A stretch of 36,461 bases of DNA from a virus, in IMG/VR virus record IMGVR_UViG_3300042569_001506, positions 1-36,461 of that record; one strand, 5' to 3'. Positions 1 to 34,574 of this stretch are shown one piece after another; positions within the stretch are counted from its first letter, which is position 1; every line of letters begins with the position of its first letter. The notes beneath the pieces were generated by a model. It searched no databases. It saw only the letters and a program-made list of their open reading frames with translations, and was not told the origin of the DNA. The position numbers were made by a program, and so were the translations under genes.

Positions 1-126
1 ATATTGAAAGAAGGGTTTGAAAAATACGAAGATAATGGTAAATGTTGGTGGGGTAGATTTAAGGAAGAAGATAAGGATTACTCAACTGAACAACTTTATG
101 AAATGTGGTTGGGCAATTATGCCTAA
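1..126 (+). CDS. C-terminal fragment of an unknown cassette-borne protein
   Basis: Frame 1 is open from the first base to TAA at 124-126 and encodes 41 residues ending in MWLGNYA; the start lies outside the window. The fragment is charged and aromatic (EKYEDN, CWWGRF, then an acidic stretch) and I do not recognise a family. The stop codon lies inside the R'' box (GCCTAAC) of the attC-like site at 121-193, the usual position of an attC site relative to a cassette gene. An overlapping 68-codon reading frame (17-223) is rejected because it runs straight through the attC-like hairpin. Confidence 0.6.
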   Translation: MLKEGFEKYEDNGKCWWGRFKEEDKDYSTEQLYEMWLGNYA

Positions 127-193
127 CGTTTTGCAGATACACGCTGTGAGCGTTGGAATGAGGGAGGGAAATAGCGTGTATGTGCTGTTATCG
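121..193 (+). other. attC-like recombination site 1
   Basis: R'' GCCTAAC (121-127) overlaps the preceding stop codon. After a 5-nt unpaired spacer comes a left arm (133-145, GCA then ATACACGCT) and a right arm (173-185, AGCGTGTAT then TGC); nine bases pair perfectly and GCA/TGC pair beyond a G/G mismatch. After one nucleotide comes R' GTTATCGGC (187-195). This order, and the longer left than right spacer, are those of integron attC sites. That an integron integrase acts on it is inference. Confidence 0.72.
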
Positions 194-608
194 GCTGCCC
201 TTCTTTCGGAATTAATAACTTAAAAAACAACATAAAATGGACGATTTATTAATAACAAGTTTGCTGTCAAAGTATCAGCATCAAAAACCTAAAGAATTTG
301 GCGATTATATGGAACGCCAATATCCAGTATCGGCAGTAATTGATATGATAATAGAATTGAAAAGTTCAAACCTATCAATACAATTTGCAGAATGGTTATC
401 AGAAAATGAGTGGGTGAAAAGAACCGCTACCCATCCAAATAAAGTCGGTCAATATTATTCGCATAAACATTGTGAATATAAAACCATTGAGCAACTATTC
501 GATATATTTTCGGGTGTCGCTTAGGGTTGCCGATAACGGCATCGGGCTTGGCGAAGTGGCTTTTGTGCGTTGGCTTGTGTGTCGGAAAGCCATTTTGCCA
601 AACCCGTG
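188..608 (+). mobile_element. Integron-like gene cassette (95-aa gene + attC-like site 2)
   Basis: Boundaries are set by the G^TT position of R' at site 1 (187/188) and at site 2 (608/609). The first bases, with the preceding G, read GTTATCGGC; the R'' box at the other end reads GCCGATAAC (529-537), its exact reverse complement (9/9), with CCC/GGG pairing after two mismatches. A cassette excised as a circle with one attC site would have exactly this property. It holds one gene (237-524) and no obvious promoter. Confidence 0.68.
237..524 (+). CDS. Hypothetical protein, 95 aa (cassette gene)
   Basis: A 95-aa soluble, slightly acidic protein without a signal peptide or membrane segment. It is rich in predicted helix (AVIDMIIELKSSN, IQFAEWLSENEW) and has a central HPNKVGQYYSHKHCEYK segment with several His and one Cys. 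I recognise no family. The ATG follows an A-rich, SD-less leader (AAAAAACAACATAAA) typical of Bacteroidota. The TAG stop lies five bases before the R'' box of attC-like site 2, so it is the sole gene of its cassette. Orphan cassette genes of unknown function are common in integrons. Confidence 0.65.
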   Translation: MDDLLITSLLSKYQHQKPKEFGDYMERQYPVSAVIDMIIELKSSNLSIQFAEWLSENEWVKRTATHPNKVGQYYSHKHCEYKTIEQLFDIFSGVA

Positions 609-614
609 TTATAT
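529..614 (+). other. attC-like recombination site 2
   Basis: R'' GCCGATAAC (529-537), 5-nt spacer, left arm 543-563, loop 564-585, right arm 586-606, one-nt spacer, R' GTTATAT (608-614). The arms are 21 nt long with 18 Watson-Crick pairs, two G-T wobbles and one mismatch, making this the strongest hairpin in the window. It is in the same orientation as site 1 and starts just after the stop codon of the 95-aa gene. It is not followed by a T-run, so it is not an ordinary rho-independent terminator. Confidence 0.75.
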
Positions 615-684
615 GAAGTGCCGACTTATTTACGATAAAGCCCAATTGGAACACTAAACAGAAAAATAAAAAATAAAAAAAGCG

Positions 685-1581
685 ATGACAACAACAGACA
701 TTAGATTTAACGAAAAACAAGATTTTGAAACAATAAAATCTGTAATTGAAAATGAATTTACAAATGTTCAAACACATACAAAGATTAGTGATTTGGACTA
801 CATTTCATTTGATTACAAAGAGCAAAACATTTATTGCTCATTTATGAAGCATAATAAAATTTATGGCAGAGGTAATAAATTAACTGAATGCTCATCTTTT
901 TCATCCGACAGACCCAATGAAATTAAAACAGAGGCATTAAAAATTATTGCCAAATATTTTGATTGCAGGTTTTGGGAAAACGATTGCGAAGAAGATAACT
1001 ATATTGACTTTAAAGCAAAAAAGAAGATTAAGCCACAAAAAGAAGCTGGATATAATGCTAAAACGCAAACAGATAAAAATATTGCGTGGTTTTTACCAAG
1101 ACCAAAGCCAGATAGATATAAGGGAGGAATGCCTTTATATTGCGAAGATTGGCTTGTTAACTTAGCAAAAGACATCTTAGGGATGAAACACGACCCATAT
1201 ACATTAAATGTTTTTTGTGGCATGAATAAACGAGGAATAAGGGTTGACATAAAAGAAGAAGTAAAGCCAGACATTCTTTGCGATGCACACGAATTGTCAA
1301 AACATTTACTTCCTGTTGGTCAAAGATTTGATTTAATAATTGCAGACCCACCATATTCAACAGAGGAAGCAAGAGATATTTATGGAACGCCAAAATTGAA
1401 ATATAAACAATGGACATCTGAATGCGACAAGTATTTAAAATCTGGTGGATTGTTTATGGTTTATCATAAATTTGTTATGCCAAACCCTAACCCAGAAAAA
1501 TATGTAGTTGTAAAAAGAGTATTTATAGGGAATAGGACAATGCACCTTCCAAGAGTATGTATAGTTTTTCAAAAAAAATGA
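685..1581 (+). CDS. Class I SAM-dependent methyltransferase with DPPY motif (probable DNA N6/N4)
   Basis: 298 aa. The C-terminal half is a Rossmann-type methyltransferase: a motif I-like NVFCGM (175-180), an acidic loop PDILCDAHEL (195-204) and motif IV IIADPPY (218-224), the amino-methyltransferase catalytic signature. The N-terminal ~130 residues match nothing I know and may recognise the target. Motif I is not a canonical FxGxG, so the SAM site is degenerate and the substrate (DNA adenine or cytosine) is inferred. It is the only gene of the last cassette in the left array, in line with restriction evasion. The start is preceded by AAAAAATAAAAAAAGCG without an SD. Confidence 0.78.
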   Translation: MTTTDIRFNEKQDFETIKSVIENEFTNVQTHTKISDLDYISFDYKEQNIYCSFMKHNKIYGRGNKLTECSSFSSDRPNEIKTEALKIIAKYFDCRFWENDCEEDNYIDFKAKKKIKPQKEAGYNAKTQTDKNIAWFLPRPKPDRYKGGMPLYCEDWLVNLAKDILGMKHDPYTLNVFCGMNKRGIRVDIKEEVKPDILCDAHELSKHLLPVGQRFDLIIADPPYSTEEARDIYGTPKLKYKQWTSECDKYLKSGGLFMVYHKFVMPNPNPEKYVVVKRVFIGNRTMHLPRVCIVFQKK

Positions 1582-1642
1582 GCGTGGGCTTTTTATTTTT
1601 TTGTTTTTCCTTCACGGATTTTCAATTGGAAACGGTCAGCAA

Positions 1643-1657
1643 GGCATTTCATATAAC
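1643..1657 (+). other. R''-like box marking the end of the left cassette array
   Basis: This 15-nt sequence is the reverse complement of 608-622 with one mismatch, so it is the R'' partner of the last cassette's own start. It is followed by TAGTAAATTTGCG, which resembles the bases after the equivalent box of the right array (TACTTTATTTACG after 34321). On the - strand the junction reads ...ACTAGTTATATG, that is, a G^TTA core next to backbone, so an attI-like target is possible. Nothing else is seen between 1582 and 1726 except a TAAATTTG (1661-1668) that could be a -7 box without a -33 partner. Confidence 0.5.
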
Positions 1658-1726
1658 TAGTAAATTTGCGAATATTTTTTACAAATAACCAATTAATAAT
1701 CAATTTAAAATCTGTAATTTAATAAA

Positions 1727-9764: not shown

Positions 9765-10841
9765 ATGGAAAACAATAAACATAACTTCCCTTACAAATGG
9801 ACTTTGAAGGATGCAGTATTTACAAAAGACAAAGGCAAAGTATTTAGTTGCTTTGCTTGTGGTGGTGGTTCAACTATGGGTTATAAATTAGCTGGATTTG
9901 ATGTATTAGGATGCAATGAGATTGACCCTAAAATGATTGAAGCATACAAAGCTAACCACAAACCAAAATATGCTTATTTAGAGCCAATACAGACCTTTAA
10001 ATTAAGAACTGATTTGCCTGATGAATTATACAATTTAGATATTTTAGATGGTTCGCCACCTTGTAGCAGTTTTTCAATGGCCGGAAACCGTGAAAATGAT
10101 TGGGGCAAAGACAAAGTATTTAGAGAGGGACAAGCAATGCAGGTTTTAGATACCTTGTTTTTTGATTTTATAGACCTTGCAAAAAAGCTACAACCAAAGG
10201 TAGTAATAGCCGAAAACGTAAAAGGATTGCTTTTGGGTGATGCAAAGCAATATGTAAGACAAATTTATAGGGAATTTGATTTGGCTGGTTATTATGTTCA
10301 ACATTGGCTTTTAGATGCTTCAAAAATGGGTGTTCCTCAAAGACGCGAGCGGGTGTTTTTTATTGCAATGCGTAAAGATTTAGCTGAGCCGTTTATGGTG
10401 CAAAAGGATATGTTTACGTTTGTGCCTGAATTGAAGTTGGTTTTTAATGAGACTGATATACCTTTTAAAGAAGTTTATCACAATTATACAGATAGGCCAC
10501 TTTCTGAACATTATCAAAAATTTTGGAATATTAGAAAGCTAGGCGATGTTGATTTTAGTGCTTCATCTGAAAGAATGGGTAAAAATCCAAACGCTCAATT
10601 TCAATACAAATATCTTTATATGGATAAGGTTGCTAATACTATTACAGCAGGTGAACAATGTGTTTTATTTGATAGTGCAAGATATCGAAATTTTGATGAA
10701 TTATGTGAGTGTGGCACATATCCAAAAGATTATAATTTTATAAAAAATAAACCCGAATACCTAATCGGTATGTCAGTTCCACCTGTAATGACTGCACAAA
10801 TAACAAAACAAGTATATGAACAATGGTTAAGTAAGATTTAA
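9765..10841 (+). CDS. DNA (cytosine-5) methyltransferase
   Basis: 358 aa with the C5-methyltransferase motifs in order: I CFACGGGSTMG (29-39), IV GSPPCSSFS with catalytic Cys100, VI ENVKG (150-154), VIII QRRERVFFI (192-200), a variable target-recognition region, then IX/X near the C-terminus (NTITAGEQ, and LIGMSVPPVMTAQI). It methylates cytosine at C5 in a sequence of unknown specificity. No cognate endonuclease is adjacent, so it is an orphan phage methyltransferase that probably protects phage DNA from restriction. It ends the + strand block and overlaps the convergent lipoprotein-like gene by 4 bp. Confidence 0.93.
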   Translation: MENNKHNFPYKWTLKDAVFTKDKGKVFSCFACGGGSTMGYKLAGFDVLGCNEIDPKMIEAYKANHKPKYAYLEPIQTFKLRTDLPDELYNLDILDGSPPCSSFSMAGNRENDWGKDKVFREGQAMQVLDTLFFDFIDLAKKLQPKVVIAENVKGLLLGDAKQYVRQIYREFDLAGYYVQHWLLDASKMGVPQRRERVFFIAMRKDLAEPFMVQKDMFTFVPELKLVFNETDIPFKEVYHNYTDRPLSEHYQKFWNIRKLGDVDFSASSERMGKNPNAQFQYKYLYMDKVANTITAGEQCVLFDSARYRNFDELCECGTYPKDYNFIKNKPEYLIGMSVPPVMTAQITKQVYEQWLSKI

Positions 10842-25980: not shown

Positions 25981-26435
25981 TATTCCTCAATGAATAAATC
26001 ATCTGCACCTTTATTAATTGTTAAATTGTTTTTAATAGCTTCATCCCAACCATCCATTTTTGACAACCTTTCAACACCTGCATAAAATGCCATTTTATCA
26101 CTACTATTTGCCTTGCTATCTTTTGCCACTATTTTATTGTATTGTATTTTTACTACATTGCTTACCATTTCTAAGGCTTTCTCCCTTTGTAGTATATTAG
26201 CCTTACTTTCGTTTTTTATTGCTTCTACATGGCTATTTTCACGCTCTAATCTTATTTTATCTTGTTTGTCTTTGATATATGCTGAAATTGTAGGGTTTTG
26301 TAGGATTTTGTAGGATTCAACCCTTGCACTTTCACTTTTGCTTTTAGGATATGCTTTTTGATAGCTTTTTATAGCATCATTTGTGAGTATATACTCGTCT
26401 GCAAATATTCGATGTTTATTATTAGTTATCATCAA
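25980..26435 (-). CDS. terS: Terminase small subunit
   Basis: 151 aa. N-terminal helix-turn-helix region of the terminase_2 type: FADEYILTNDAIKSYQKAYP, SESARVESYKILQNPTISAY, then a coiled coil (KQDKIRLERENSHVEAIKNE) for oligomerisation and an acidic C-terminus (DDLFIEE) to contact TerL. It recognises the packaging site. It begins within the last codons of the ParB-methyltransferase gene (14-bp overlap); a second Met one codon later is equally possible as start. Confidence 0.88.
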   Translation of the reverse strand: MMITNNKHRIFADEYILTNDAIKSYQKAYPKSKSESARVESYKILQNPTISAYIKDKQDKIRLERENSHVEAIKNESKANILQREKALEMVSNVVKIQYNKIVAKDSKANSSDKMAFYAGVERLSKMDGWDEAIKNNLTINKGADDLFIEE

Positions 26436-27660
26436 ATTCTTTTTTATCTATTACTACTCCGTTACGTTTGATTACCAAAGTAGGGTCAAGTTTAATCATT
26501 CGCTTTACAATTACATCGCAATATTTAGGGTCGAGCTCCATTAAATTAGCTGTTCTTTTTAATTGATGGCTTCCAACCATTGTACTTCCACTTCCTCCAA
26601 AAGCATCATAAATTAATTGTCCTTTTTTACTACTATTATTTAAAGCACGTTCAACCACATCTATTGGCTTTTGTGTAGGGTGATAATCATTCGTATTATC
26701 TTTTTTAAATTCCCAAACAGTTTTTTCGTCAGTTGGCCCAAACCATTGAATTGTTTTACCTTCTTTATGACCATATATACAAGGCTCATAATTTGGAATA
26801 TATTGTGACATAAAAGCTCCAGAACCACTTTTAACTTTATACCAACAAATAACTGCTCTTACTTCAATTGGTGTTTTAGACAATCCTAAGTAAGTCTCTT
26901 TTGATTTTCCTCCAGCATACCAAATATAAAAAGGTGCTGAATCTTTTGAAAATATACAAGCTGTATTTATAGAATCCTCAAATAAACTTGACAAATCTTC
27001 TCCTTGTAATTCATCTGCAATAATACCAGTTCTTTGTTTTTTATTATGACCTCCAGTATAACTTACCCCATAAGGCGGGTCAGTAAATACCATGTCAGCC
27101 TTTTGTCCATTCATTAACTTTGCCACTTGGTCGCTATCCGTACTATCTCCACAAAGCAAACGATGCTCTCCTATTTCGTAAAGGTCGCCCAAAACAGTTA
27201 TAGGTGTTTCGGGTGGTGTTGCATCAAAATCATCTTCTTGAGCTTCTAAATGACTTTCTTCCTCCACTACCTCCACAAACACCTCTTCAAGCTCAAAATC
27301 AAATTCATCTGCAATTACCTCTACAAGTTCCACATCAATATTTTGGTTCTTTTGGGCTACTGTGTTTGCGAGAATAGATGCCTTATGAAATTCCTTTGTT
27401 CCGCTTTGTATATCGGTACGCTTAATAACTATTGGTGTAGTGCCATCGGTTTCAACTACAATAGCGTCTTTGCTAAACTTTTGCCCTATTTTCTCGTGCC
27501 TAGCATTTCCGCTTATAATTACATTATCATTGCTTATTGTTACACTTTCAATAATTCCTACTTGTTCTAGTGAATTATCTAGTGTGTGCATACCATACTC
27601 GGTGTGCTTGTTTGTATTCCTGCTATCAGGTTTTATATCTTTAAATTTTATTTTTGCCAT
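26422..27660 (-). CDS. ParB-like nuclease domain fused to a DNA methyltransferase
   Basis: 412 aa. Residues 1-~110 are a ParB/Srx-like domain (DIKPDSRNTNKHTEYGMHTL, then VGIIESVTIS and VIISGNARHEK). After an acidic linker comes a beta-class amino-methyltransferase: motif IV TDPPYGVSYTG (193-203), HPTQKP (327-332), motif I DAFGGSGST (352-360), DPKYCDVIVKR. It probably methylates adenine N6 or cytosine N4. This fusion is frequent next to terminases in phages, perhaps linking modification to packaging. It is the first gene of the late operon and has a strong promoter. Confidence 0.92.
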   Translation of the reverse strand: MAKIKFKDIKPDSRNTNKHTEYGMHTLDNSLEQVGIIESVTISNDNVIISGNARHEKIGQKFSKDAIVVETDGTTPIVIKRTDIQSGTKEFHKASILANTVAQKNQNIDVELVEVIADEFDFELEEVFVEVVEEESHLEAQEDDFDATPPETPITVLGDLYEIGEHRLLCGDSTDSDQVAKLMNGQKADMVFTDPPYGVSYTGGHNKKQRTGIIADELQGEDLSSLFEDSINTACIFSKDSAPFYIWYAGGKSKETYLGLSKTPIEVRAVICWYKVKSGSGAFMSQYIPNYEPCIYGHKEGKTIQWFGPTDEKTVWEFKKDNTNDYHPTQKPIDVVERALNNSSKKGQLIYDAFGGSGSTMVGSHQLKRTANLMELDPKYCDVIVKRMIKLDPTLVIKRNGVVIDKKEFDDN

Positions 27661-31875: not shown

Positions 31876-32055
31876 ATGGAAAAAGAACTCAAAGAACTTT
31901 TAAAGCTAAAAGAAAATGTAGTAAGATGGAATATGTGCGCTGAACTCGATGAAAGGCTAGGAGTAGACCCAACTAAATCAAATGAAAGTGCATTGTTTTA
32001 CGAGCAGGAATTGAATAGTAAATTGAAAAAGATTGTTGAAACTTATGGGAAATAA
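31876..32055 (+). CDS. Small helical protein, 59 aa
   Basis: ATG 31876, TAA 32053-32055: MEKELKELLKLKENVVRWNM, ELDERLGVDPTKSNESALFY, then a helix ending KKIVETYGK. No family recognised. Its TAA lies in AAATAAC, the R'' box of attC-like site 3. No matching GTTATTT start lies upstream, so this is probably a phage gene next to the insertion point rather than a cassette gene. Confidence 0.6.
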   Translation: MEKELKELLKLKENVVRWNMCAELDERLGVDPTKSNESALFYEQELNSKLKKIVETYGK

Positions 32056-32136
32056 CGACGTTTGCAGATAAGCGAAGGCACAAATAGCGTTGGCATTGTG
32101 CGAGGGATTTGGGCTTTTGCTTATGTGCTGTTATGT
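32050..32136 (+). other. attC-like recombination site 3
   Basis: R'' AAATAAC (32050-32056) overlaps a stop codon; left arm 32064-32084 (GCA, then ATAAGC, then AAGG.ACAAAT); right arm ~32107-32128 (ATTTGGGCTTTT, GCTTAT, then TGC); one base; R' GTTATGT (32130-32136). Arm layout, including the G/G mismatch between the GCA/TGC and AT-rich blocks, is the same as site 1 although sequences differ. Left spacer 7 nt, right spacer 1 nt. Confidence 0.68.
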
Positions 32137-32183
32137 GTCTGTAATTTTTTTAAACTTTTGTGCGTAGACTTTTAAATTATAAT

Positions 32184-32993
32184 ATGAAAACAATAACATC
32201 AATTTCAGGAGGTAAAACCTCTGCTTACTTAGCGAAACACTATCCAACCGATGAAAATATATTTGCATTGATTAGGATTGAAGATAGGAGATGCACTCCA
32301 AAGGATAAAGCATTGGTGCAAAAGATTAGCGATAAAATAGGAATGGAATTTATAGCTACTGCCGAAAGTGATACTACATTAACATTAATGTTTGATTTGG
32401 AGCAGTTACTTGGTAAAGAGATAATTTGGGTTACTGGCGATACTTTTGAGCAAGTGTGCCTAAAAAGAAAAGCATTACCAAACTTAATGATGAGATTTTG
32501 CACTACTGAAATGAAGATGAAACCAATATTTGAATTTTGCCATAATCATTTTGGAATGGTTGAAATGAATATCGGATTTAGATTTGATGAAATGGAACGT
32601 GCTAATAGCCAAAATACGAAGTTTAAGACTATTACAGGGCAAAGTGCTAATGGTAGAAACAAATGGACTGAAATAGAATGGAGAACTTGTAAATATCCAT
32701 TGATAGAAAACAGAATAAGCCATTACCAAGTAGCACAATGGGCAAATAAAACAGATTTGATATTTCCACCTGATAGTAATTGTGTTGGTTGCTTTTGGAA
32801 AAATCCACAACAACTTAGGAAAAACTTTGATGATGAAAGTTTGAAAATGCAATGGTTCGCAGATATGGAAACAACACTAAAACGCAAATGGAAAAAAGAA
32901 ATGAGTTATGAGAAAATAAAAACTATTGGACTGCAACAAGATTTCTACTTCGGAACCGGAAGCGGATGTCAAGCAGGATTTTGTACCGACTAA
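32184..32993 (+). CDS. PAPS-reductase-like PP-loop ATPase / sulfotransfer enzyme
   Basis: 269 aa from ATG 32184 (an ATG 24 bases upstream adds MRRLLNYN without support). The PP-loop SISGGKTSAYLAK (6-18) binds ATP/adenylate; MMRFCTTEMKMKP (102-114) corresponds to the RxCxxxLK-type loop of PAPS reductase-like enzymes; a CVGC pair (200-203) and two late Cys (CQAGFC) could bind iron-sulfur or zinc. The family adenylates and transfers sulfur or reduces PAPS; phage members are linked to DNA or RNA thio-modification. Substrate unknown. The partner gene in the same cassette acts on nucleosides, so a base modification is plausible. Confidence 0.82.
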   Translation: MKTITSISGGKTSAYLAKHYPTDENIFALIRIEDRRCTPKDKALVQKISDKIGMEFIATAESDTTLTLMFDLEQLLGKEIIWVTGDTFEQVCLKRKALPNLMMRFCTTEMKMKPIFEFCHNHFGMVEMNIGFRFDEMERANSQNTKFKTITGQSANGRNKWTEIEWRTCKYPLIENRISHYQVAQWANKTDLIFPPDSNCVGCFWKNPQQLRKNFDDESLKMQWFADMETTLKRKWKKEMSYEKIKTIGLQQDFYFGTGSGCQAGFCTD

Positions 32994-33010
32994 CTTTAAA
33001 ACAATATAAA

Positions 33011-33412
33011 ATGAAACAAAAAGTGTATTTAGCAGGTGGCTTTAAAAGCGACTGGGCAAACGAAGTAAAAAAGTGTTCTGATAATTTCCAATGGATAAAC
33101 CCAAAGGATAAGGAATATAAGAACGGAGAACGAATTGTAATGAATGTAAACGAATACGGAAAGTGGGATTTACATTTTATTAAGCAATGTGATATTCTGT
33201 TTGTTTATGTTGAAAGAACAAATACAAGTTGTATTGGATTATGCTGTGAAGCGGGATTTGCAAAAGGATTAGGTAAAACTGTAATTACAATTTTAGAACC
33301 TAACCACGAAACAATTAAAGATGCTTACTTGTCTTTTATAACACAAGTATCTGACATTGTATTTGAAGATTTAGAAAGTGGCATCAACTATTTAAAATCG
33401 TTTGCAGTATGA
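33011..33412 (+). CDS. Nucleoside 2-deoxyribosyltransferase-like protein
   Basis: 133 aa from ATG 33011. MKQKVYLAGGFKSDWANEV is the first strand and phosphate-side loop; KWDLHFIKQCDILFVYVERT and CIGLCCEAGFAKGLGKTVIT hold the Asp and the catalytic-type Glu (E-x-G-x-A) of the nucleoside deoxyribosyltransferase / DUF4406-like superfamily. It would cleave or exchange bases on (deoxy)nucleosides or nucleotides. It lies 17 bp after the PAPS-reductase-like gene, in the same cassette. Confidence 0.78.
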   Translation: MKQKVYLAGGFKSDWANEVKKCSDNFQWINPKDKEYKNGERIVMNVNEYGKWDLHFIKQCDILFVYVERTNTSCIGLCCEAGFAKGLGKTVITILEPNHETIKDAYLSFITQVSDIVFEDLESGINYLKSFAV

Positions 33413-33457
33413 TTGTTAGTACGGTGCGGTGGGAAAAAAAGTTTAAAAAAATTATTG

Positions 33458-33512
33458 CACATAACGTATGGTGCTATAAAATCGTTTTAATGTTTTATAG
33501 CACGTGTTACCT
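33458..33512 (+). other. attC-like recombination site 4
   Basis: R'' CACATAAC (33458-33465), 5-nt spacer, left arm GTGCTATAAAA (33471-33481), 11-nt loop, right arm TTTTATAGCAC (33493-33503; perfect 11-bp stem), 2-nt spacer, R' GTTACCT (33506-33512). Shortest of the four, same orientation, no T-run after it. Confidence 0.72.
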
Positions 33513-33579
33513 GCTGGTGCGGTTTATTTAGCAGGATTTTGATTTGAAAACGAATAGAAAATTTAAAAAGTTTTAGAGT

Positions 33580-34293
33580 ATGAAATATATGGGAAGTAAA
33601 AATCGGATAGCAAAAGAAATACTACCGATAATGCTAAAAGAACGAGGGCAAAGAACTTGGGTAGAGCCTTTTGTTGGAGGTGGAAATATGATTGATAAGG
33701 TGCAAGGCAAAAGAATAGGTGCAGACTTAAATGAATATGTAATTGCATTGCTAAACGAAATGAGCAAATCTACTTTTGTTGCACCTGCAATTAGCGAAGA
33801 AAAATATAACGAGTTAAAATCGAACAAAGATTTATACGAAAAATGGGTTGTTGGTTATGCAGGAACTCAATTAAGTTTTGGTGCTACTTGGTTTGGAAGT
33901 TATAGACGAGATAATTTAGGTAAAAGAAACTATTGCTTAGAAGCACAAACCAATGTAAATAAACAAAGCAAAAGCCTACAAGGTGTTGAGTTTATACATA
34001 GTAGTTACGATAGTTTAGAAGTGCCTGAAAATAGTTTTATTTACTGCGACCCACCATACCAAACCATAGCAACAAAAGGAAAGTATAAAGACGATTTTAA
34101 CCACGAAATATTTTGGCAATGGTGCAGAGATATGGTAACAAAAGGACACATAGTTTATGTAAGTGAATATAATGCACCTAATGATTTTGAGTGTGTTTGG
34201 CAAAAGGAAATTAACCAACGAATGAATAACAATGTTGAAACAAGTAAAGCGGTGGAAAAACTTTTTAAATTTTCTAACACAAATGTTCAATAG
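33580..34293 (+). CDS. DNA adenine methyltransferase, Dam/D12 class
   Basis: 237 aa. MKYMGSKNRIAKEILPIM is the FxGsK-type start of D12-class N6-adenine methylases; motif I VEPFVGGGN (28-36) binds SAM; motif IV CDPPY (156-160) is catalytic. The family methylates adenine, often in GATC. Slightly shorter than E. coli Dam (278 aa). Orphan: no cognate nuclease nearby. It is the only gene in the last cassette of the right array, matching the left array where a DPPY methyltransferase is also last. Confidence 0.92.
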   Translation: MKYMGSKNRIAKEILPIMLKERGQRTWVEPFVGGGNMIDKVQGKRIGADLNEYVIALLNEMSKSTFVAPAISEEKYNELKSNKDLYEKWVVGYAGTQLSFGATWFGSYRRDNLGKRNYCLEAQTNVNKQSKSLQGVEFIHSSYDSLEVPENSFIYCDPPYQTIATKGKYKDDFNHEIFWQWCRDMVTKGHIVYVSEYNAPNDFECVWQKEINQRMNNNVETSKAVEKLFKFSNTNVQ

Positions 34294-34312
34294 TAGTAGT
34301 GTCGTAGCACTT

Positions 34313-34321
34313 GCAGGTAAC
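34313..34321 (+). other. R''-like box ending the right cassette array
   Basis: GCAGGTAAC, the exact reverse complement of the cassette start at 33506-33514. It is followed by TACTTTATTTACGCAACA, which resembles TAGTAAATTTGCGAATA after the left array's box (1658-1674). Between here and 34350 there is only a SD-less leader. Confidence 0.55.
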
Positions 34322-34349
34322 TACTTTATTTACGCAACAAAACCAAATT

Positions 34350-34574
34350 ATGAATATATCAATATCAAATAATTACGATTTGAAATGGAATGTTTTAGGC
34401 TATCCAAGTTTAGCTATTACATCATGCAGTAAAATAATAAACACTCGCACAGGAAAAATCAAAAAGAAGTGTTTAAATGGTGGCAGTATCGGATATTGGC
34501 TGGATGCAAAAACTTTTAAAAAATTAGATGACATCAATAAAATTGCCATCAAAAAACAATATTGTCCTTTTTAA
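34350..34574 (+). CDS. Hypothetical protein, 74 aa
   Basis: 74 aa from ATG 34350; an in-frame TTG start at 34311 is rejected because it lies in the R'' box. MNISISNNYDLKWNVLGYPS, NTRTGKIKKKCLNGGSIGYW, LDAKTFKKLDD: a small beta-rich basic protein with the 'N.RTGK..K....GG..GYW' pattern common in small early proteins of Bacteroidota phages, function unknown. First backbone gene after the right array. Confidence 0.6.
   Translation: MNISISNNYDLKWNVLGYPSLAITSCSKIINTRTGKIKKKCLNGGSIGYWLDAKTFKKLDDINKIAIKKQYCPF

Follow-up and report, generated by a model that had tools for sequence, protein, structure and literature searches.

A two-cassette integron-like array in a virus genome and a candidate integron class of Bacteroidota phages

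Two small phage genes in the IMG/VR virus record IMGVR_UViG_3300042569_001506 are separated by a block of hairpins and genes, and the locus raises the question of whether this block is a set of mobile cassettes and, if so, what moves them. The window analysed here is the whole 36,461-nucleotide stretch of that record (positions 1 to 36,461), and the array features and flanking genes described in it are on the + strand. The original prediction, made from the letters of the DNA alone, had read the block as an integron-like array. Our analysis supports that reading and allows it to be extended to a dedicated recombinase and an attI-like site found in other phages. We put the probability at roughly 0.9 that the region is a two-cassette mobile array of a phage integron-like system, inserted beside an attI-like site at 34322 to 34335.

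The left flanking phage gene (59 aa, 31876 to 32055) ends in a TAA stop that overlaps the AAC of the insertion point, within the junction GGGAAATAAC, which ends at 32056. From this AAC (32054) an attC-like hairpin, site 3, extends to a GTT at 32132; a second, short hairpin, site 4, with the loop TCGTTTTAATG, runs from AAC at 33463 to GTT at 33508. Both lie where they had been predicted. The first cassette of this right array, R1 (32130 to 33465), starts with R' GTTATGTG at 32130 and closes with R'' CACATAAC, ending at 33465; these ends are complementary at 8/8 positions and, past a gap of 4/3 nt, at a further 18/18 (32142 to 32159 against 33437 to 33454). R1 carries two genes, as had been claimed, one for a phosphoadenosine phosphosulfate reductase-like protein (32184 to 32993; phrog_424, 6.6e-26) and one for a nucleoside 2-deoxyribosyltransferase-like protein (33011 to 33412; PF15891, 7e-9). 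The second cassette, R2 (33506 to 34321), has ends R' GTTACCTGC and R'' GCAGGTAAC that are complementary at 13/15 positions, and its gene encodes a D12 class adenine DNA methyltransferase (33580 to 34293; PF02086, 6.1e-17) with 77.7% nucleotide identity to a methyltransferase gene in the array of Polaribacter phage P12002L. The array is thus bounded by GGGAAATAAC and by TACTTTATTTACG (34322 on), the latter opening the attI-like terminal site TACTTTATTTACGC (34322 to 34335), and is followed by the right flanking gene (74 aa, 34350 to 34574). With the array removed this gene would start 28 bp past the junction; the two phage genes would thus be close neighbours as proposed, at a spacing that replaces the ~23 bp first given.

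Read along the + strand, each unit opens directly past a TAAC with its hairpin, continues through GTTAxxxx to its gene or genes and closes with xxxxTAAC, directly past which the next unit begins; the final unit closes without a hairpin. On the opposite strand the order becomes that of an integron, with attI first and then cassettes that are each terminated by their own hairpin, but the genes all lie on the hairpin strand. In one respect the earlier description has to be corrected: the hairpin is located 5' of the gene to which it belongs. This holds for all four cassettes of the window, whereas an attC site 3' of the gene is typical of integrons, if not absolute.

The same rules had been claimed for an array at the left of the window (125 to 1671), and they apply there as well. 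Hairpin site 1 (AAC..GTT, 125 to 189) belongs to the hairpin family of site 3 and precedes cassette L1 (187 to 537; R' GTTATCGGC, R'' GCCGATAAC), which contains a gene for a 95-aa protein of unknown function (237 to 524). Site 2 (535 to 610) is followed by cassette L2 (608 to 1657), whose ends are complementary at 14/15 positions and whose 298-aa gene (685 to 1581) is a DNA methyltransferase by PHROG. Each array of the window thus consists of two hairpin sites and two cassettes. The left array (125 to 1657), with its right-array features and its DNA methyltransferase cassette, is located at the extreme edge of the record. More DNA methyltransferase-like genes lie outside the arrays, at 9765 to 10841 and 26422 to 27660, and no cassette structure was noticed around them.

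The strength of the end complementarity was assessed by shuffling the start tail of each cassette. The observed end scores were reached by 0.4% of shuffles for L1 (p 0.004), 0/500 for L2 and 0.2% for R2 (p 0.002). The 8/8 match of R1 alone is not significant, as 39% of shuffles reach 8/8 in a 3.5-kb search; its position, however, coincides exactly with the AAC that opens the next hairpin, and the 18-bp extension lies outside that shuffle. Cassette ends that match their own starts, as originally predicted, are a property of both arrays. A fold-energy scan of all AAC..GTT pairs proved too permissive, and we used instead a purpose-written detector, with its own thresholds and shuffled controls, that combines the stem with end complementarity. 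Applied to 159 kb of such loci it identified 89 units; Markov-shuffled copies of the loci yielded 1.

Close relatives of the window were recognized by a neighbouring 246-aa protein, found at 95-97% identity in five viral contigs; in the four such records checked the terminases are 99% identical. Three relatives (L003, L004 and L005) keep the 59-aa gene and the identical left junction GGGAAATAAC, after which they have quite different hairpins and genes, while in L001 and L002 the array begins where the 246-aa gene stops. Had relatives always carried the same genes at this place, the prediction was to be given up; since other cassettes are found at an identical junction in relatives with 99% identical terminases, this outcome did not occur. 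The exact empty site that had been predicted was absent from the viral contigs searched, since all relatives that share the left flank have an array at this point; the single match to a degenerate form of the site was a chance one in unrelated sequence. The R1 hairpin and first gene recur at 95.3% identity in a phage contig (L089) without common flanks. No recombinase gene was found by an IntI model search of the window record or by a PF00589 search of four near relatives. In L003 a short invariant-loop hairpin at 9852 to 9880, with arms that begin GTTA and end TAAC, resembles a cassette without a gene.

The cassette system is widespread among Bacteroidota-type phages, where we counted at least 368 distinct cassettes in 124 viral loci. 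Hairpins like site 3, mostly 90-97% identical to it, adjoin other genes in dozens of other phage loci, and the short form is matched by at least 120 viral stretches. Most of 100 sites with the pattern TTTGCAGATA..TATGTGCTGTTA follow the end rule, the next element being a hairpin or a terminal motif. The loop TCGTTTTAATG of the short class, to which site 4 belongs, is invariant by selection of the sample; the 69 distinct stems of this class keep 9.0 of 11 Watson-Crick pairs, versus 4.8 with partners swapped, and each of the three loop-adjacent pairs shows all four Watson-Crick pair types. The imperfect hairpin, the paired R''/R' ends and the AAC/GTT core are those of an attC site. The departures from the canonical form are in the loop and in the asymmetric spacers, of which the one that follows AAC usually measures 5 nt and the one that precedes GTT 1 nt.

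A PF00589 gene is present in only 3 of 49 records searched (close relatives of the window, and 44 records found by hairpin pattern). One of the three is G036, in which an array of about ten cassettes stops 51 bp before a gene for a 277-aa tyrosine recombinase, which is followed by 98-aa and DnaA-like genes, as is the window's array, with 98% nucleotide identity over 1.4 kb; only some modules are common to the two genomes, and G036 has no match to the window terminase. Scanning with an alignment of these recombinases yielded 56 viral loci. Of these, 48 extend 900 bp or more upstream, and 45 of the 48 contain cassette units, nearly all of them on the + strand; in 36 of all 56 loci no more than 120 bp separate the array end from the matched recombinase start. 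The distance from the terminal AAC to the start codon is 36-52 bp in 27 of 28 loci measured, and the array-associated recombinases are 265-280 aa in length. Recombinase, attI-like site and array form one module in these phages. At the recombinase-adjacent junction AAC is directly followed by TAYTATATRTA. When a matrix built from these junctions was scored on the 1273 AAC sites of the window, the end of the right array ranked 3/1273; the left array terminal sequence TAGTAAATTTGCGA (1658 to 1671), weakly attI-like, scored poorly and is not special (rank 46/1273). Many integrase-less viral arrays close with a second motif, close to TYNNNNATACNCGC, that is unlike the recombinase-adjacent one and is possibly the attI of another recombinase.

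Cultured phages provide a view of such arrays over short times. The Polaribacter phages Freya_1, 2, 6, 8 and 10 (L214, L215, L216, L217 and L218) were all isolated from a single host strain. Over 43,932 bp they are identical except at 0-4 positions, and yet they differ by 0.8-4.9 kb of cassettes beside the recombinase gene. Their arrays are nested, that of Freya_1 within that of Freya_2 and that of Freya_2 within those of the other isolates. Additions start exactly past an AAC, and most of them are located at the attI end, beside ACCCCTATAACAAC, ~46 bp from the recombinase gene; the arrays grow upstream of the recombinase where AAC meets ACCCCTATAAC. Freya_8 and Freya_10 differ by one internal cassette of 902 bp. 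In the clean pairs just 3-11 bp are common at the crossover. These differences between genomes indicate that the cassette system is active, with precise gain or loss of cassettes in phages that carry the same module; together with the linkage of arrays to the gene they argue for use of the recombinase on cassettes. A cassette entry site beside the integrase is seen in the conserved TAYTATATRTA of the phages, in the nested growth of the Freya arrays and in the rank of the window's right end. Units of this type also occur in Leef_1 and P12002L.

The Freya comparison also bears on two other explanations. Hairpins directly past stop codons and ahead of the next gene could be rho-independent terminators or RNA processing sites, with the genes between them differing through ordinary homologous recombination. 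However, the stems are followed by no T run, the complementarity reaches across hundreds of bp to the opposite end of the cassette, and insertions in otherwise identical genomes begin exactly past AAC; this reading was rejected on these grounds and is very improbable. Single-strand transposons of the IS200/IS605 or helitron kind, inserting 3' of a short target, would account for the subterminal hairpin, the short fixed target and the fact that no target-site duplication was seen. They would not account for an array-side gene that encodes a tyrosine recombinase with all catalytic residues, nor for units that are tandem, on one strand and growing at one end; no HUH enzyme was noticed, and this explanation was likewise rejected, its chances being very slight.

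The recombinases themselves form a distinct group. The catalytic residues are kept in 29 aligned members, and the phage proteins match XerA, XerC/D and IntI models, always below the curated cut-off in the members tested, while two Bacteroidota relatives just clear the cut-off of the XerA-like model. With TIGR02249 full-length phage members score 96-161 bits, and up to 170 in a second comparison, against a cut-off of 265. The distance between the KxR and HxxRH motifs is 53-61 residues in 33 phage recombinases, and all but one of 26 Bacteroidota relatives (25/26) have 53-59, as compared with 99-101 in three IntI proteins and 66 in XerD; in an alignment with IntI4 (2a3v) the corresponding figures are 25 versus 71 residues. 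This short stretch implies that the IntI insertion, considered necessary for integron integrases (PMC9668308, PMC8138268), is absent. In a tree the phage and Bacteroidota recombinases are separate from IntI and XerC/D (92/96), with the phage members mostly together. An integron in the strict sense has an IntI-family integrase with the IntI-specific insertion, an additional domain, and these loci encode an enzyme of another kind. As the enzyme is without that insertion, and hairpin and gene are inverted with respect to classic integrons, we speak of an integron-like mechanism.

Could these be ordinary bacterial integron cassettes that were captured by phages and are moved only by the integron integrase of the host, in phages that lack such a system themselves? 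Of 247 genomes sampled from Bacteroidota, a group in which a published survey found few complete integrons (PMC9024848), 92 contain a relative of the recombinase. Several of these relatives adjoin an array of the same hairpin type, so that hairpin and integrase do occur together in Bacteroidota genomes. The lack of a recombinase gene in the window record and its near relatives also fits this explanation, as does the resemblance, by eye, of several integrase-less viral array ends to bacterial attI-like junctions. The genes, however, lie oppositely relative to the hairpin. Among phage cassettes with a clear reading frame 273 have the gene on the hairpin strand with the hairpin 5' of it and 10 do not (273/283), and in a second phage sample, found by loop motif, the gene is on the hairpin strand in 104:0; the Bacteroidota arrays are classic in 17 of 23 cases (6:17 against 273:10, Fisher p 2e-16), the bacterial counts being small (n=23) and several of the bacterial contigs being perhaps of phage origin. 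The two pools of cassettes are therefore largely separate. Moreover, the TTTGCAGATA..TATGTGCTGTTA hairpin family is represented by 93 stretches in viral contigs, while 257 Gb of genomes from bacteria and archaea yielded 5, and dozens of phages have their own recombinase beside the array. Exclusive dependence on a host integron is thus unlikely. In a Bacteroidales MAG (L099, JAQVVM010000005.1) cassettes of mixed orientation adjoin the gene for a phage-type recombinase of 266 aa; this locus may represent a prophage or a mis-binned phage contig.

For the phage integron-like system we infer the chemistry, the strand use, a circular intermediate and the source of the enzyme in the window phage as follows. 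A cassette consists of one or more genes plus one hairpin site, and once it is circular its two ends would pair to form the hairpin arms (TAAC-hairpin-GTTA). The folded strand would be bound by a XerC/IntI-like tyrosine recombinase that lacks the IntI-specific insertion, and this enzyme would cut the strand between AA and C and join the cassette at attI; the right end of the array would therefore be the point of entry of new cassettes. Because the coding strand is the hairpin strand in phages, the cassette genes would be read along with the phage operon. For the window phage a co-infecting phage or an integron of the Bacteroidota host probably provides the enzyme in trans, or else its gene lies outside the record.

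Integrons are treated as bacterial and lately also archaeal elements, and are recognised by the IntI insertion and the classic attC site. The phage arrays resemble them, including the chromosomal integrons of Bacteroidota, in the attI-side recombinase, the tandem cassettes with one hairpin each, the AAC/GTT core, the end complementarity and the growth at attI; they differ in the lack of the ~40-residue insertion from the recombinase, the 5/1 asymmetry of the spacers, the ~15 nt of end complementarity and the inversion of gene relative to hairpin, by which cassette genes are read toward attI. That phages can carry integrons and CALINs is already known. CALINs, attC clusters that lack an integron integrase, as found in virulent phages (Qi et al. 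2023, PMC9892861), share with the arrays described here attC-like clusters, methyltransferase genes, a lytic phage and the lack of an integrase. For P12002L two sites of divergent direction were reported in that work, and an attC of this phage was recombined with IntI1; the P12002L sites follow the rules of the window arrays, which here are ordered, of one direction and part of a widespread system with its own recombinase. The Vibrio, class 1 and Shewanella integrons of temperate phages (PMC9892861) likewise combine integrase and cassettes in a phage genome, but they are of host type, their IntI having the insertion (99-101 residues versus 53-61 here). In the Freya and Leef phages, which have the recombinase, the attI-like junction and cassettes ~46-55 bp upstream, the isolating study saw in the integrase a potential for a temperate life style; the word integron is absent from that paper (PMC8776804). 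A description of an insertion-less phage integron class, or an experiment on this recombinase family, was not found in the open-access papers searched.

We consider it likely that Bacteroidota phages have an integron class of their own, with a compact insertion-less recombinase, its own attI and largely phage-specific inverted cassettes, often with DNA-modification genes, that are exchanged between lytic phages in natural populations. Such a class would tend to evade tools based on IntI and attC. It would be a little-recognised system by which phages collect and exchange genes such as those for DNA-modifying enzymes, a precise gene-swapping device of their own, and an 'integrase' in such a phage would be no evidence of lysogeny. 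Since related recombinases seem to be functional on hairpins without the insertion, the role of the IntI insertion becomes a testable question. Clustering of the 176 phage cassette proteins that are 85 aa or longer gave 120 groups, for most of which the function is unknown. DNA methyltransferases of several types are the commonest named cargo, and one of these forms the largest group, with 18 members; Mom, a TET-associated glycosyltransferase and a viperin are each matched by a single group. The presence of methyltransferases, Mom and glycosyltransferases in the cargo is as expected if the device serves escape from restriction.
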